NCBI GenBank assembly: GCA_943329165.2
Contig: CALQCV020000003.1
Location: forward strand, 1-24,148
Length of the DNA: 24,148 nt
Direction of reading: 5' to 3'
Origin: Candidatus Nitrotoga sp. CP45
GTDB taxonomy: Bacteria; Bacteroidota; Bacteroidia; Flavobacteriales; Flavobacteriaceae
Shown here: one piece after another, positions 6,446 through 11,608 of the stretch
Layout: every line of letters starts with the position of its first letter
Position numbering within the stretch: the stretch's first letter is position 1
Program-made: the position numbers and the translations under genes
The notes under the pieces: model-generated
What the model saw: the letters and a program-made list of their open reading frames with translations, nothing else
Databases searched by the model: none
What the model was told of the DNA's origin: nothing

Positions 6446-6597
6446 AAAAAACAAGTTTTATTAATAGTATTTTATTGAGAAATTAATAATAAAAGTATAT
6501 CTAAAATGTAAAAAAGTTTATTTTTTTTTACTACTATAGGTATTACTACGATTTTGATAAAAATGGAGCTAAAACTTTTTTCCTATTCAAAAAGTAG

Positions 6598-6605
6598 TAT
6601 TTTTG
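6598..6605 (+). promoter_or_regulatory. -7 promoter element of the threonine operon
   Basis: TATTTTTG matches TAnnTTTG exactly and lies six bases before the leader-peptide ATG at 6612. Transcription from it would start at or within a few bases of that ATG, giving a nearly leaderless message. The -33 region is only T-rich (6575-6581). Confidence 0.4.
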
Positions 6606-6611
6606 AAAAAC

Positions 6612-6713
6612 ATGTGGAATAAAAAAAACATATTTACTTCAGCAGTAGCAGATAATTTATTGGCTGTAACTAGTATTGCTACCACGTTAACCACAACCCC
6701 ATTTGGGGTATAA
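6612..6713 (+). CDS. thrL: Threonine/isoleucine-rich leader peptide of the thr operon
   Basis: 33-codon ORF (M-W-N-K-K-N-I-F start) ending in TSIATTLTTTPFGV. Seven Thr codons in all, six of them with one Ile codon within residues 20-29. It ends 84 bases before thrA. This is the layout of attenuation leader peptides such as E. coli ThrL, where ribosome stalling at scarce Thr/Ile-tRNA controls read-through into the operon. No sequence similarity to E. coli ThrL is claimed beyond composition and position. A -7 promoter word sits just upstream. The product is probably not functional as a protein; translation itself is the signal. Composition and position are seen directly; the mechanism is inferred. 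Confidence 0.75.
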   Translation: MWNKKNIFTSAVADNLLAVTSIATTLTTTPFGV

Positions 6714-6736
6714 TCTTTCATATAATGCTAATGCCA
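6661..6736 (+). promoter_or_regulatory. Candidate attenuator RNA overlapping the leader ORF
   Basis: Two folds compete for the Thr-codon region. A compact hairpin pairs ACCCC (6696-6700) with GGGGT (6705-6709) over the leader stop. A longer-range stem pairs TAGTATT (6671-6677) with AATGCTA (6724-6730, one G-U) and TGGC (6661-6664) with GCCA (6733-6736), enclosing all the clustered Thr codons. A ribosome stalled in that cluster would open the long stem. Neither fold has a clear U-tract, so the terminator step is not identified. Confidence 0.35.
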
Positions 6737-6759
6737 TGGACTTTCATTACGAAGGACAA

Positions 6760-6794
6760 CAACTCATAATTCATAATTTACAACTCATAATTCA
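6760..6794 (+). repeat. 14-base direct repeat before thrA
   Basis: CAACTCATAATTCA occurs at 6760-6773 and again at 6781-6794, four bases before the thrA ATG, with CATAATT also between the copies. Unlike most gaps here the copies are direct, not inverted. Confidence 0.7.
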
Positions 6795-6797
6795 ATC

Positions 6798-9245
6798 ATG
6801 ATAGTATTAAAATTTGGCGGTACATCAGTAGCCAATGCAGAAAATATTTCAAAAACAATAGCCATCGTAACTAATAAAAGTAAAGAAGATAAACTAGCCG
6901 TTGTAGTTTCTGCTTTCAGTGGTGTAACTGATATGTTAATCTTAGCAGGAAAAACGGCGTCAGAAAAAGACAAAAATTACAAAGACATTGTTAGCCAAAT
7001 AGAGAAAAAACACAAAGATGTTATTGACGAATTAATTCCATTAAGTGAACAAAGCGATCTTATTAGTGCAATTAATGGCAATATTAATCATTTAAAAACA
7101 CTATTAGATGGCTGTTATCTTTTGGGCGAATTGTCAAATAGAACCGCTGATATAGTGGCTGGATTTGGAGAATTATTATCGTCGCAAATTATTGCTGTTG
7201 TGCTGAAACAAAAAGTAAACAATTCCGCTTTCAAAGACAGTCGTGAACTAATCAAAACCGATTCCCACTTCGGAAAAGCAGCCGTTGATTTTGGCGTAAC
7301 CAATAAATTGATCGCCGATTATTTTAAATCCAATACCAATCAGGTTGTTTTATTTCCTGGTTTTATCGCTTCTTCTATAGATGGCAATACGACAACATTA
7401 GGTCGTGGTGGTTCTGATTATACTGCGGCAATTATCGCTGCAGCCGCAAAAGCTAACGTTTTAGAAATTTGGACCGATGTAAACGGAATGTTTACCGCCA
7501 ATCCAAGAATTGTAAAACAGGCGCAGCCAATAGAAACTATTTCATATCAAGAAGCGATGGAATTATCGCATTTTGGTGCCAAAGTATTGTATCCGCCAAC
7601 CATACAACCCGTATTGAAAGACAGTATTCCTATTTTCATAAAAAATACTTTTGAACCTGAAATATACGGAACATTAATTTCTGATACTCCAAAGGCTACT
7701 GCTAATCCTATCAAAGGGATTTCGCATATCGATAACATTGCGTTGCTGACACTTGAAGGTTCAGGAATGATTGGTGTTGCCGGTTCTTCAAAGCGTTTGT
7801 TCGAAGTACTTTCGCAGCATAACATCAACGTGATTTTTATTACTCAGGCTTCTTCGGAACACTCTATTTGTATTGGTATTTTAAATGCCGATGCTGATAG
7901 AGCCAAATCCGCCATCGATAAAACCTTTGAGATTGAGATTGCCCAAAACAGAGTTGACCCAACTATTGTAGAAAAAGATTTATGTATCGTAGCTTTAGTT
8001 GGAGAAAACATGAAAAACCATCAGGGAATTAGCGGTAAAATGTTTAGCACTTTGGGTAAAAACAATGTGAACATACGAGCGATTGCACAAGGAGCATCTG
8101 AAAGAAATATCTCTGTGGTTATCAATGAAAAAGATGTTAAAAAAGCATTGAATACATTGCACGAACGTTTCTTTGAAGACAATACAAAGCAGTTAAATTT
8201 ATTTGTAATGGGTGTTGGAAATGTAGGCGAGAAATTCATTGACCAAATAGCACAGCAAAAGAAGTTCCTGAAAGAAAATCTAAAAATTAACCTTCGTGTT
8301 ATTGCTATGTCAAACTCAAGAACAATGGTTTTTGATGAAGAAGGAATCAATTTGAAAGACTGGAAAACAGCCCTGAATCAAGGTGAAAAAGCAAACGTTG
8401 AAAACTTTATTTCAAAAGTAAAAGATCTCAACGTACGCAACAGTATTTTTGTTGATATAACCGCAAACTATTATATTGCAGGCATTTACAATAAGTTCTT
8501 AAGCGAGAATATTGCGGTAGTTACCTGCAACAAAATTGCCTGTTCTTCGGAATATGACAATTATAAGAATCTTAAAAATTTATCTCGAAAATACAATGCT
8601 CCTTTCCTATTCGAAACGAATGTTGGAGCCGGATTACCAATAATCGATACACTAAAACATCTGATAGCTTCCGGCGATAAGGTCAATAAAATCCAAGCGG
8701 TTTTATCGGGAAGCCTAAACTTTATTTTTAATAATTTCAGCGATACTTATAATTTTCATGATGTTGTTAAAGAGGCTGGTGTTCAAGGATTCACAGAACC
8801 TGACCCAAAAATTGATTTAAGCGGCGTTGACGTTGCCAGAAAGATATTAATACTAATCCGCGAAAGCGGTTATAAAATGGATATTGAGGAAATCGAGAAC
8901 AATTGTTTCTTGCCACAAGAATGTATGGACACAACCAACAACGAAGATTTCTTTAAATCATTAACGAAAAATGATGCGCATTTCAACAAACTTTTGGCTG
9001 AAGCGAAATCAAAAGACAGCCGCATTAAATTTGTCGCTAAATTTGATAACGGAAAAGCATCGGTTGGTTTACAGTTCATTCCAAAAGAAAGCCCGTTTTA
9101 TAACCTTCAAGGAAAAGATAATATCGTAGAATTCTACACCGACCGTTATGTGGATCAGCCATTAATTATAAAAGGGGCCGGGGCCGGGGCTGCAGTTACA
9201 GCTTCAGGTATTTTTGCCGACGTAATTAGAATTGGAAATGTTTAA
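6798..9245 (+). CDS. thrA: Bifunctional aspartokinase / homoserine dehydrogenase
   Basis: Fused enzyme for the first and third steps from aspartate to threonine. The 815 residues begin with the aspartokinase motif KFGGTSVANAENI (from residue 5) and carry LGRGGSDYTAA near 200. Two ACT regulatory segments follow (about 310-385 and 395-460), for example LVGENMKNHQGISGKMF. Homoserine dehydrogenase starts near 465 with the nucleotide-binding FVMGVGNVGEKF (Gly472, Gly474, Gly477), then VVTCNKIA, FETNVGAGLPII and EPDPKIDLSGVDVARK. Length matches E. coli ThrA (about 820). It is first in thrABC and lies behind the leader ORF. The ACT domains in this family bind threonine for feedback inhibition. No frameshift or missing catalytic segment is seen. 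Confidence 0.96.
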   Translation: MIVLKFGGTSVANAENISKTIAIVTNKSKEDKLAVVVSAFSGVTDMLILAGKTASEKDKNYKDIVSQIEKKHKDVIDELIPLSEQSDLISAINGNINHLKTLLDGCYLLGELSNRTADIVAGFGELLSSQIIAVVLKQKVNNSAFKDSRELIKTDSHFGKAAVDFGVTNKLIADYFKSNTNQVVLFPGFIASSIDGNTTTLGRGGSDYTAAIIAAAAKANVLEIWTDVNGMFTANPRIVKQAQPIETISYQEAMELSHFGAKVLYPPTIQPVLKDSIPIFIKNTFEPEIYGTLISDTPKATANPIKGISHIDNIALLTLEGSGMIGVAGSSKRLFEVLSQHNINVIFITQASSEHSICIGILNADADRAKSAIDKTFEIEIAQNRVDPTIVEKDLCIVALVGENMKNHQGISGKMFSTLGKNNVNIRAIAQGASERNISVVINEKDVKKALNTLHERFFEDNTKQLNLFVMGVGNVGEKFIDQIAQQKKFLKENLKINLRVIAMSNSRTMVFDEEGINLKDWKTALNQGEKANVENFISKVKDLNVRNSIFVDITANYYIAGIYNKFLSENIAVVTCNKIACSSEYDNYKNLKNLSRKYNAPFLFETNVGAGLPIIDTLKHLIASGDKVNKIQAVLSGSLNFIFNNFSDTYNFHDVVKEAGVQGFTEPDPKIDLSGVDVARKILILIRESGYKMDIEEIENNCFLPQECMDTTNNEDFFKSLTKNDAHFNKLLAEAKSKDSRIKFVAKFDNGKASVGLQFIPKESPFYNLQGKDNIVEFYTDRYVDQPLIIKGAGAGAAVTASGIFADVIRIGNV

Positions 9246-9329: not shown

Positions 9330-10250
9330 ATGAACGAAATAAAAATATTCTGCCCCGCCACTATCGCTAATCTCAATTGCGGATTTGACGTGATGGGATT
9401 GTGTCTCGAAGGTATTGGTGACGAAATGATTATCAGGAAAGTCGATGAAAAAGGTATCAGAATAATCAAAATTACCGGCGCCGATTTGCCTTTAGAAACT
9501 GAGAAAAATGTAGCCGGAGTTGCTGGATTAGCCATATTGAATGCCACTCAATCCGACTTTGGTTTTGAAATCGAAATCCATAAAAAGATAAAAGCCGGAA
9601 GCGGTATTGGAAGTTCTTCTGCTAGCGCGGCTGGAGCCGTTTTTGGGATCAACGAACTTTTGGGCAGACCATTTACAAAACACGAATTAGTTGACTTTGC
9701 TATGAAAGGCGAAGTAGTTGCCAGCGGAAGCGAACATGCCGATAATGTTGCGCCTTGTATTCTTGGGGGGTTCACCTTGGTTCGCGGTTACAATCCGTTG
9801 GATGTGATTAAGATTGAAAGTCCAAGTGAAATTTACGCTGTCGTGTTACATCCTCATATTGAAGTAAAAACTTCTGATTCGCGTGCGGTTTTATCTCCAA
9901 CTATTTCCTTAAAATCTGCTATTTCACAGTGGGGAAACCTTGGTGGATTGATTGCGGGTTTATATACTAAAGATTATGAATTGATTGGTCGTTCGCTAAA
10001 TGATGTCATCGTTGAGCCCAAAAGAAAACATTTGATTCCCAATTTTGATAAAGTAAAAAATGCTGCGCTACATAATGGTGCTTTAGGTTCCGGAATTTCT
10101 GGTGCCGGACCATCAATTTTTGCGCTGTGTAAAGGACAATCTATAGCCGAAAAAGTTGCTTATGCAATGAGCAACACTTATCTGGACACCGGTATTTCGT
10201 TTGATATTCATATTTCAAAAGTGAATGATGAAGGAACTAAAATTATATAA
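9330..10250 (+). CDS. thrB: Homoserine kinase
   Basis: GHMP-family kinase that phosphorylates homoserine using ATP, the fourth step of threonine synthesis; cytosolic. 306 residues, the usual length. The start MNEIKIFCPATIANLNCGFDVMG carries the family's N-terminal substrate region, the phosphate-binding loop KAGSGIGSSSASAAGA lies at about 88-103, and the C-terminal glycine motif GSGISGAGPSIFAL is near 252-265. It lies between thrA and thrC, 84 bases after thrA and 68 before thrC; both gaps hold hairpins, which is wide for a tight operon. No anomaly is seen in the coding sequence. Confidence 0.95.
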   Translation: MNEIKIFCPATIANLNCGFDVMGLCLEGIGDEMIIRKVDEKGIRIIKITGADLPLETEKNVAGVAGLAILNATQSDFGFEIEIHKKIKAGSGIGSSSASAAGAVFGINELLGRPFTKHELVDFAMKGEVVASGSEHADNVAPCILGGFTLVRGYNPLDVIKIESPSEIYAVVLHPHIEVKTSDSRAVLSPTISLKSAISQWGNLGGLIAGLYTKDYELIGRSLNDVIVEPKRKHLIPNFDKVKNAALHNGALGSGISGAGPSIFALCKGQSIAEKVAYAMSNTYLDTGISFDIHISKVNDEGTKII

Positions 10251-10318: not shown

Positions 10319-11608
10319 ATGAAGTATTATAGTCTTAACAATAAATCCCATAAAGTAAGTTTCCAACAAGCTGTTGTTGCTGGTTTAGCGCCTGACCGAG
10401 GTTTGTATTTCCCGGAAACTATTACGCCACTGCACGACTCTTTCTTTGCCAACATAGAAAATCTTTCTCAAAAAGAAATTGCTTATGAAGCCATCAAACA
10501 ATTCGTTGGCGATGAAATTCCGAAGGCGGAACTGAAACGTATTATAGCAGAAACACTTTGCTTTGACTTTCCATGTGTGCTTGTTGAAGAGAATGTATTT
10601 TCCCTAGAGCTTTTTCACGGCCCAACTATGGCGTTTAAAGATGTTGGCGGAAGATTTATGTCGAGATGTTTGGCATATTTTAATAGAGATAAAGATAGTA
10701 AAAACACGGTTTTAGTAGCCACTTCAGGAGATACTGGTGGTGCTGTTGCTAGTGGCTTTTTAGGTGTTAAGAATGTAGAAGTTATCATTCTCTACCCATC
10801 CGGAAAAGTGAGTGATATACAAGAAAGACAGTTGACAACTTTAGGCCAAAATATAAAAGCTCTTGAAGTTGATGGCTTTTTTGATGATTGTCAGGATATG
10901 GTCAAAAAAGCTTTCCTGGATGACGGTTTGAAACACAAGAATCTTACCTCGGCTAACTCAATCAACATTGCACGTTGGTTGCCTCAAATGTTTTATATCT
11001 TTTTTGCGTACCAACAATTAAAAAAACACAACAAACCAATTATTTTGTCTTGCCCAAGTGGAAACTTCGGGAATATCTGTGCCGGAATTATAGCAAAAAG
11101 ATTAGGTTTGCCAATAGCACATTTTGTAGCAGCTACTAATGCAAACGATACCGTTCCAAGATTTTTAGAAAAAGGAAATTACAATCCTAAACCATCAATA
11201 GCAACGATTTCCAATGCGATGGACGTAGGTAATCCAAGTAACTTTATCCGAATTCAGGAATTATACAACAACAATTTATCTGAATTTCACAACGACTTTT
11301 CTTCGTATTCGTATACTGATACTGAAACCGAAAACGCGATTACAGACATTTACAACCGAACAAAATACATAGCCGAACCTCATGGAGCGATAGGTTATCT
11401 TGGTCTGAAAAAAGAAATGACAAAACAGCCAAATAGCGTTGGCGTATTTTTAGAAACGGCGCATCCAATTAAATTTCTGGATACTGTTGAACCTTTATTG
11501 GGTTTAAAACTACCCATTCCAAAACAAATTGAAAGTGTTTTGGGTAAAGAGAAAGTGCGCACCAAGATTAAGACCTATGAAGAGTTTAAGGCATTTTTAA
11601 ACTCTTAG
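10319..11608 (+). CDS. thrC: Threonine synthase
   Basis: PLP enzyme converting O-phosphohomoserine to threonine and phosphate, the last step of the operon pathway. 429 residues, close to E. coli ThrC (428). The PLP lysine is Lys107 in GPTMAFKDVGGRF, followed by the phosphate-cup sequence ATSGDTGGAVASGF and later SANSINIARWLPQMFYIFFAY and LSCPSGNFGNICAG. The N-terminal MKYYSLNNKSHKVSFQQAV is typical of the family's N-terminal domain. Last gene of thrABC; a perfect 10-base inverted repeat overlaps its final codons. Confidence 0.95.
   Translation: MKYYSLNNKSHKVSFQQAVVAGLAPDRGLYFPETITPLHDSFFANIENLSQKEIAYEAIKQFVGDEIPKAELKRIIAETLCFDFPCVLVEENVFSLELFHGPTMAFKDVGGRFMSRCLAYFNRDKDSKNTVLVATSGDTGGAVASGFLGVKNVEVIILYPSGKVSDIQERQLTTLGQNIKALEVDGFFDDCQDMVKKAFLDDGLKHKNLTSANSINIARWLPQMFYIFFAYQQLKKHNKPIILSCPSGNFGNICAGIIAKRLGLPIAHFVAATNANDTVPRFLEKGNYNPKPSIATISNAMDVGNPSNFIRIQELYNNNLSEFHNDFSSYSYTDTETENAITDIYNRTKYIAEPHGAIGYLGLKKEMTKQPNSVGVFLETAHPIKFLDTVEPLLGLKLPIPKQIESVLGKEKVRTKIKTYEEFKAFLNS
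11580..11606 (+). terminator. Possible terminator hairpin at the thrC end
   Basis: AAGAGTTTAA (11580-11589) and TTAAACTCTT (11597-11606) are perfect complements with a seven-base loop, ending just before the thrC stop. The stem is AT-rich and lacks a clean U-tract, so termination is only possible. It encodes the last residues of ThrC (EEFKAFLNS). Confidence 0.35.

Follow-up and report, generated by a model that had tools for sequence, protein, structure and literature searches.

How does a flavobacterium adjust the expression of its threonine operon when the leader in front of that operon carries no classic terminator? The question is raised by a 24,148 nt stretch of DNA, hereafter the window (contig CALQCV020000003.1 of assembly GCA_943329165.2, Candidatus Nitrotoga sp. 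CP45, placed by GTDB in Flavobacteriaceae), in which the genes thrABC follow a short ORF rich in Thr codons. Comparison of this locus with other thrA upstream regions led us to a reading that we hold at roughly even odds (about 0.5), namely that the leader is a ribosome-dependent attenuator of thrABC that reads the charging of both Thr and Ile tRNA and is built without an intrinsic terminator.

A threonine leader peptide upstream of thrABC

The features of the locus are collected in Table 1. The original prediction of a 33-codon, Thr-rich ORF 84 bases 5' of thrA agrees with the sequence in both coordinates and translation, and the ORF does end in TSIATTLTTTPFGV, with six Thr codons and one Ile codon within ten. 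This is the only ORF with six Thr codons in ten among the 283 ORFs of at least 20 codons in the window. In the 80 named loci described below, such ORFs numbered 57 out of 5213 (again of at least 20 codons), of which 55 lie on the coding strand within 500 nt 5' of thrA and the remaining two (L038 and L039) are thrA leaders too, at shifted positions. The leader ORF upstream of thrA is real, and the arrangement by which an attenuator is recognised, a short ORF with clustered codons for the pathway product placed behind a promoter and before the operon, is the one found here.

Table 1. Coordinates of the thr leader, its RNA elements and the thrABC genes in the window.
Feature	Position	Strand	Description
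-7 promoter element	6598..6605	+	TATTTTTG, matches TAnnTTTG; six bases 5' of leader ATG
thr leader peptide ORF, MWNKKNIFTSAVADNLLAVTSIATTLTTTPFGV	6612..6713	+	ATG 6612, 33 codons, TAA 6711-6713
Hairpin A	6642..6674	+	Inside ORF; consensus pairs 6649-6654 with 6661-6666; one mismatch in window
Putative Thr/Ile control codons	6669..6698	+	Thr codons 20, 24, 25, 27, 28, 29; Ile codon 22; run into hairpin B
Hairpin B	6696..6709	+	ACCCC 6696-6700, loop ATTT, GGGGT 6705-6709; stop codon begins 6711
Motif M	6719..6728	+	CATATAATGC in window, consensus CATATMATCC; 9 nt after hairpin B
Hairpin D	6741..6755	+	CTTTC-ATTAC-GAAGG; structure kept, sequence not
thrA, bifunctional aspartokinase-homoserine dehydrogenase	6798..9245	+	ATG at 6798; Pfam
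thrB, homoserine kinase	9330..10250	+	GHMP kinase domains; Pfam
thrC, threonine synthase	10319..11608	+	Thr_synth_N; Pfam

Just 5' of thrA, positions 6759-6794 of the window also hold a direct repeat of ACAACTCATAATTCA (copies at 6759-6773 and 6780-6794), and AACTCATAA words resembling this repeat precede thrA in the relatives L005 and L033.

Conservation of the leader in flavobacteria

Upstream regions of thrA were compared at 110 loci, comprising the window and 29 places in relatives (together the best 30 places of a longer match list, with 60 relatives searched) and 80 named contigs (the best 80 of 577 confirmed stretches). The named set is mostly Flavobacterium and also includes Kordia, Flagellimonas, Tamlana, Cellulophaga, Neptunitalea, Seonamhaeicola and others. 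One locus with just 19 nt of upstream sequence (L105) was excluded from presence counts, leaving 109 assessable regions; in 101 of them thrA is preceded by a Thr-run ORF whose end falls on hairpin B (98 found by rule, L098 and L103 by eye, and L039 beyond an inserted gene). An ORF kept across relatives with variable synonymous Thr codons, which the original prediction had proposed to look for by alignment, is what the alignment revealed. The leader was not found in the other eight regions (L008, L026, L029, L031, L032, L040, L085 and L089), of which L032 belongs to a distant paralogue type of thrA (36% identity), and the leader scan likewise found none at L226, a thrA of the window's family. 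Genomes of the same genus carry a second aspartokinase-homoserine dehydrogenase that is 35-38% identical (e.g. G009:C1:43541-45940); L032, without a Thr leader, is the copy inspected. A nonredundant set below 80% identity retained 56 of the 98 leaders, the start codon of L053 being doubtful.

The untranslated gap between leader and thrA spans 63-194 nt in the 98 leaders. About 80 extra bases lie between hairpin D and thrA in L011, L012, L019 and L021, and those of L019 and L021 contain AACCTTTG-type repeats. At L161 and L039 a gene insert of about 600 bp separates an intact thr leader from thrA, so that thrA of L161 starts 741 nt past the start of the motif match; the inserted gene has roughly 130-150 codons and presumably encodes a GxxExxY family protein.

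The word six bases upstream of the leader, earlier taken for a promoter, does match TAnnTTTG, which is described as the flavobacterial sigma-A -7 box (PMC9723704). Allowing up to one mismatch, such a box is present in 97 of the 98 leaders, 3-24 nt (median 10) 5' of an in-frame ATG, a count that stands without a shuffle control, and a perfect TAnnTTTG is found near the leader ATG in 92. In F. johnsoniae about 4-5 nt are reported to separate the -7 element from the transcription start (PMC6847099), so the thr transcript probably begins with the leader AUG itself or only a few nt from it.

Selection for threonine and isoleucine codons

In the 56 diverse leaders the codon that starts hairpin B is always Thr (56/56, the Thr run having belonged to the selection rule), the codon preceding it is Thr in 49 and Ile in 7, and the next one is Thr in 51, Ile in 4 and Gly in one. 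Taken together, these two positions ahead of hairpin B hold Thr in 100, Ile in 11 and Gly in one of 112 cells, and Ile occupies 11 of the 12 non-Thr cells (binomial p 3e-8 against 1/6). Thr codons are exchanged freely with their synonyms (ACA 117, ACT 116, ACC 91, ACG 11), which, with the residues kept, indicates that selection acts on the encoded residue, and specifically on both pathway products. This near-exclusive use of Thr and Ile before hairpin B within a conserved ORF suggests that the leader very probably reads Thr- and Ile-tRNA charging, and the earlier reading of a Thr/Ile leader peptide for thrABC is upheld by its conservation and by the synonymous turnover of its Thr codons.

A covariance model comprising the Thr run, hairpin B and motif M was searched against genomes without reference to thrA. 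Within the family it matched 21 of 120 genomes and within the order 25 of 196, with one match each and the window genome included in both, and thrA was directly downstream in all 45 model-match loci that were fetched; the model was built from thr leaders, and some of the searched genomes were among its sources. These match counts are lower bounds for presence, because most genomes fell below the cut-off under strict filters. Alignment A5 used 54 of the 56 leaders, with L027 and L087 excluded. A search of Rfam gave no gathering match in the whole window and no match at E<=1 in 6560-6810, and nine thr-leader loci matched no family, with the Bacteroid-trp leader detected in L200 as a positive control.

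Hairpins of the leader

The stem of hairpin B is nearly invariant in Flavobacteriales and is kept though the peptide beneath it varies, ending in P-stop, L-stop, PFGV-stop, PLG-stop or LWG-stop. Its position relative to translation is similarly constrained, as the stop codon ends 9-18 nt past the start of the left arm in 94 of the 98 leaders (the exceptions are L009, L022, L104 and L082). In L082, from Flavobacterium johnsoniae CI04, the loop of hairpin B has UCG for UAG, which extends the leader to 61 codons. Covariation in hairpin B was not seen within Flavobacteriales, where the arms hardly change, and substitutions with pairing kept appear only between families. The original prediction had also placed two competing folds over the Thr codons; this part gained no support, as the predicted fold of the window leader is about as stable as those of its shuffles (z -0.11) and its centroid contains hairpin B alone.

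Hairpin A lies about 45 nt into the ORF, and in many leaders its pairs fall between +37 and +54, counted from the ATG. In the window it has the same centre and is weak (z +0.43), whereas in relatives it is strong and covarying. Against synonymous-codon controls its mean z was -1.44 in the 56 nonredundant leaders, with 17 at p<0.05 (Fisher 7e-16), in comparison to +0.23 and +0.27 for slid control windows. The arms of hairpin A also pair better with their own partners than with those of other species (-7.22 versus -3.56 kcal/mol, p 3e-9), and both the energy and the swap tests used all 56 leaders. In alignment A4, 94% of hairpin A was paired with 21 double-change cells (0 of 500 shuffles), counts that lean towards structure as its 25 leaders were picked from the 56 for the same hairpin A offset from the ATG; the number of pair types showed no excess there (9 versus 9.3 in shuffles). 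Kinship inflates the hairpin p-values; slid and swapped controls carry more weight as evidence. The region of hairpin D had a mean z of -1.22, with 13 of 56 leaders at p<0.05 and the window itself at z -0.51.

Leaders in other families of the phylum

Homologues of thrA elsewhere in the phylum were scanned for Thr/Ile-rich ORFs with no stem requirement, and 22 leaders of the hairpin B type were found outside Flavobacteriales: 13 in family f22, eight in family f35 and L227, where computed kinship places f22 in the same class and f35 in another class. All 22 have a paired GC stem adjoining the run and a stop codon in or beside the hairpin. In f22 the stem reads ACGGG/CCCGU in 12 of the 13 ORF-found leaders (L253 has ACCCC/GGGGU), meaning that three of its five base pairs have switched sides and still pair. 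A stem-based finder, which requires pairing and whose background was 7 matches in 156 reverse complements and none in 780 shuffles, detected leaders in 23 of 58 regions outside Flavobacteriales and none in 35; within f22 it gave the reversed stem in 13 of 14 leaders, adding L269. Four f35 loci that were outside the stem-finder set (L231, L232, L234 and L235) had no visible leader.

Fixed spacing between hairpin B and motif M

In 48 of 56 Flavobacteriales leaders [CT]ATAT lies 9-11 nt beyond hairpin B, as it does in 10 of 13 leaders of f22 and 8 of 9 of f35 with L227. When the range is widened to 6-12 nt, the counts in the same groups are 51/56, 10/13 and 9/9, in comparison to 3-7% in shuffles, the copy nearest 10 nt being counted where two were present. 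Motif M is absent in five of the 56 Flavobacteriales leaders and in three of the 13 of f22. The CC that follows is less constant, occurring within 6 nt after [CT]ATAT in only 40 of the 56, and M of the window ends in GC instead. Many Flavobacterium leaders also have ACATAT (Thr-Tyr) at ORF +19 to +24, which resembles motif M.

Known pause hairpins sit 10-13 nt from the RNA 3' end (PMC12288461), and the hisL pause is described with a 5-bp stem and a distance of 10 nt (PMC9291695). As the spacing from B to M corresponds to the geometry of such an RNA-polymerase pause hairpin, we propose that the two form a pause-type module, at which polymerase may be held.

Absence of an intrinsic terminator

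Each leader was scanned from its start into thrA for a hairpin of at most -8 kcal/mol followed by a U-tract. Only three of the 98 thr leaders passed, two of them by way of hairpin A inside the ORF, and none was found in the window, as the original prediction had stated. By the same kind of scoring, terminators are present in 21 of 21 his, 9 of 9 ilv and 16 of 16 trp leaders of relatives. The his set comprised all 21 fetched hisG loci with hairpins of up to 35 nt (39 nt was allowed in later scoring); the ilv set consisted of those nine of 20 fetched ilvD loci with a visible leader, L183 being chosen by eye; and the trp set was 16 of 17 stronger trpE loci (none in L213), with the weaker PF04715 loci L216-L222 outside the count. 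Canonical attenuators are thus common in these relatives for his, ilv and trp, and the thr leader departs from the local norm. With the classic terminator absent, the off-switch must act differently, and the earlier suggestion to this effect gains support.

The his leaders of these relatives are His-run peptides, MISIQLHHHHFHYCSQAMC in L125 being one example, and each of the 21 hisG loci (L113-L133) has a strong intrinsic terminator; those 5' of ilvD are rich in Ile, Val and Leu, again with strong terminators (L179, L180, L183, L184, L186, L188, L189, L191 and L196). The his leader L114 and the ilv leader L184 match no Rfam family.

Outside Flavobacteriales, four of the 22 hairpin B-type leaders (L230, L237, L270 and L278) pass the loose -8 kcal/mol rule with values from -8.4 to -10.3, and in two of these the hairpin is B itself. 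Five further Thr/Ile leaders of thrA (L241, L263, L268, L274 and L276) have a strong U-tract terminator (-13.3 to -19.4) with the Thr/Ile run spaced from the stop codon, and four of the five belong to f22, alongside terminator-free ones. By sequence, two attenuator designs are predicted for one thr operon within the phylum.

Proposed mechanism and alternative explanations

We propose that transcription starts at or just 5' of the leader ATG and that hairpin A, whose distance from the start is constant, most likely pauses RNA polymerase so that the ribosome catches up. If the ribosome then stalls at the final Thr/Ile codons, it would cover the left arm of hairpin B, and once B has formed the polymerase would stand about 10 nt beyond it, at CAUAU..CC, much like a polymerase held at a hairpin-stabilised pause. 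When Thr is plentiful, the ribosome would leave at the stop codon, B would form and the held polymerase would be released from the template, most likely aided by Rho or another factor. Under Thr or Ile shortage the stalled ribosome would keep B open, and transcription would reach thrA. Sequence comparison supports the ORF, the promoter box, the selection for Thr and Ile, hairpins A and B, the spacing of B to M and the lack of a terminator, and from these we infer the pausing and the release step, and, from pathway logic, the direction of the response (shortage leading to expression). It is important to note that tight coupling of ribosome and polymerase would weaken or reverse this logic, as a translating ribosome would keep B open with polymerase at M.

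A broader proposal, which we advance tentatively and with less confidence, is that these leaders represent a separate attenuator design in at least two Bacteroidota classes, in which the starved ribosome directly gates the formation of a pause hairpin within the exit channel of RNA polymerase, the stop codon lying inside this hairpin or next to it, without antiterminator or intrinsic terminator. The pause module and a release factor would together constitute the off-switch, and the design would coexist with canonical his, ilv and trp attenuators in same-genus relatives and with canonical thr attenuators in f22.

Control could instead be purely Rho-dependent, where the Thr run and the untranslated gap serve as a Rho entry site that is hidden by the stalled ribosome, and B and M merely set the halt site or matter little. 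This explanation, which we regard as unlikely, accounts for the lack of an intrinsic terminator and for the length of the untranslated gap, and ribosome-controlled Rho loading, with stalled ribosomes governing the loading sites, is described for bacterial leaders (PMC12121999). The transcribed leaders also contain more C than G (means of 0.197 and 0.114), an excess that follows from the Thr codons alone; in the window the best 60-nt C-over-G excess of the leader falls after the ORF and is equalled or surpassed by 3.8% of its 60-nt stretches. Rho entry by itself would leave the invariant hairpin B and its fixed spacing to M unexplained.

A classic attenuator with mutually exclusive folds appears improbable. 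Here GGGGUAUA would pair with AUAAUCC as an antiterminator, and otherwise AUAAUCC would pair downstream as a terminator. The complementary words are present in many Flavobacterium leaders, the C-rich M persists in f22 though the G-rich arm has switched side, and in several leaders the site most like a terminator is this first pairing with U-rich RNA behind it. The competing pairing is nonetheless no better than dinucleotide shuffles (mean z 0.10, 2/56 at p<0.05, Fisher p 0.91), a comparison of low power as shuffles keep CC words, and is slightly weaker than with swapped partners (p 0.054), where power is limited as the arms hardly vary. The pairings of GGGGUAUA with AUAAUCC and of AUAAUCC with a downstream GGAU, convincing by eye in Flavobacterium, were dropped as the main model for lack of support from shuffles and swaps. 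In a swap test over 21 region pairs, pairing of the ORF start gave p 0.019 for hairpin D as partner and p 0.015 for the Thr run, both of which fail correction, and the left arm of A pairs with the right arm of B more weakly in its own leader than when swapped (-3.43 versus -3.69, p 0.00035). The scarcity of thr terminators (3/98), when all 46 his, ilv and trp leaders score as having one, argues further against exclusive folds.

The ribosome position might act after transcription, on the stability or translation of thrA mRNA, a reading that fits the missing terminator and conserved hairpins that could guard the mRNA. The variable distance from leader to thrA (63-194 nt) and the gene between them at L161 and L039 speak against it, and extra sequence up to the size of a gene insert argues for action on transcription. 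We consider post-transcriptional control rather doubtful for this reason, and control of thrA translation, an option of the original prediction, has become less likely given the roughly 80 extra bases or the whole gene in between.

It is very improbable that M works at the DNA level (as an operator or internal promoter) and has nothing to do with the leader peptide: its sequence is conserved with no supported pairing partner and includes TATAAT in many Flavobacterium leaders, but its spacing is tied to an RNA hairpin, and TATAAT does not match TAnnTTTG and is lost in other families (CATATAGCCC, CATATTACCC and CATATCGCC). TATAAT as a second promoter was rejected, as it is not kept outside Flavobacterium. 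TnaC is a nascent-chain arrest peptide, and a similar arrest instead of codon-dependent stalling is hardly credible here and was rejected, since many leaders do end in Thr-Pro-stop but the peptide end is not conserved (LWGC-stop and TG-stop occur besides the ends named above).

Relation to known leaders and significance

The thr leader resembles E. coli thrL in being a Thr/Ile-rich leader before thrABC with the same two gating amino acids. In thrL, a U-tract terminator follows the stop codon and the codon run is spaced from the terminator, whereas here the run adjoins the hairpin, the stop codon is in or next to the hairpin and no terminator was found. The Bacteroid-trp leader (RF01692) is likewise a Bacteroidetes leader peptide with control codons, but it senses Trp and has a strong intrinsic terminator (16/16 trp leaders), and the thr leaders have no model match. 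Pause signals of the hisL type are similar in having a short hairpin, 10-13 nt ahead of the RNA 3' end there and 9-11 nt ahead of the motif here. The pause in his and trp leaders is a timing step beside a terminator; in the thr leader the pause-like module is the only conserved candidate off-element. As in E. coli tnaC and other Rho-controlled leaders, a stalled ribosome close to the stop codon could block factor-dependent termination, yet unlike tnaC the thr leader would sense codon starvation and not a peptide-ligand arrest, and a role for Rho is conjectural.

Strong clues for leader-peptide attenuation before amino-acid biosynthesis operons are described in Flavobacterium psychrophilum (PMC9723704); the main text of that paper contains neither 'thrA' nor 'threonine', and its supplements may list thrA. 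Among the literature matches listed (titles and abstract starts) there was no report of this thr leader, though the 2010 Lopatovskaya survey might mention it. We rate the terminator-free thr leader as the known idea of leader-peptide attenuation in a new form, outside Rfam families. Such a design is easily missed because attenuators are often sought through their terminators.

The terminator-free thr leader is deeply conserved, yet absent from Rfam. It offers a clean system for signalling from ribosome position to RNA polymerase, for which the canonical his, ilv and trp attenuators of relatives provide controls, and this in a phylum without Shine-Dalgarno sequences and on a nearly leaderless mRNA. 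Control of thrA in a large group of environmental and aquatic bacteria becomes directly testable.
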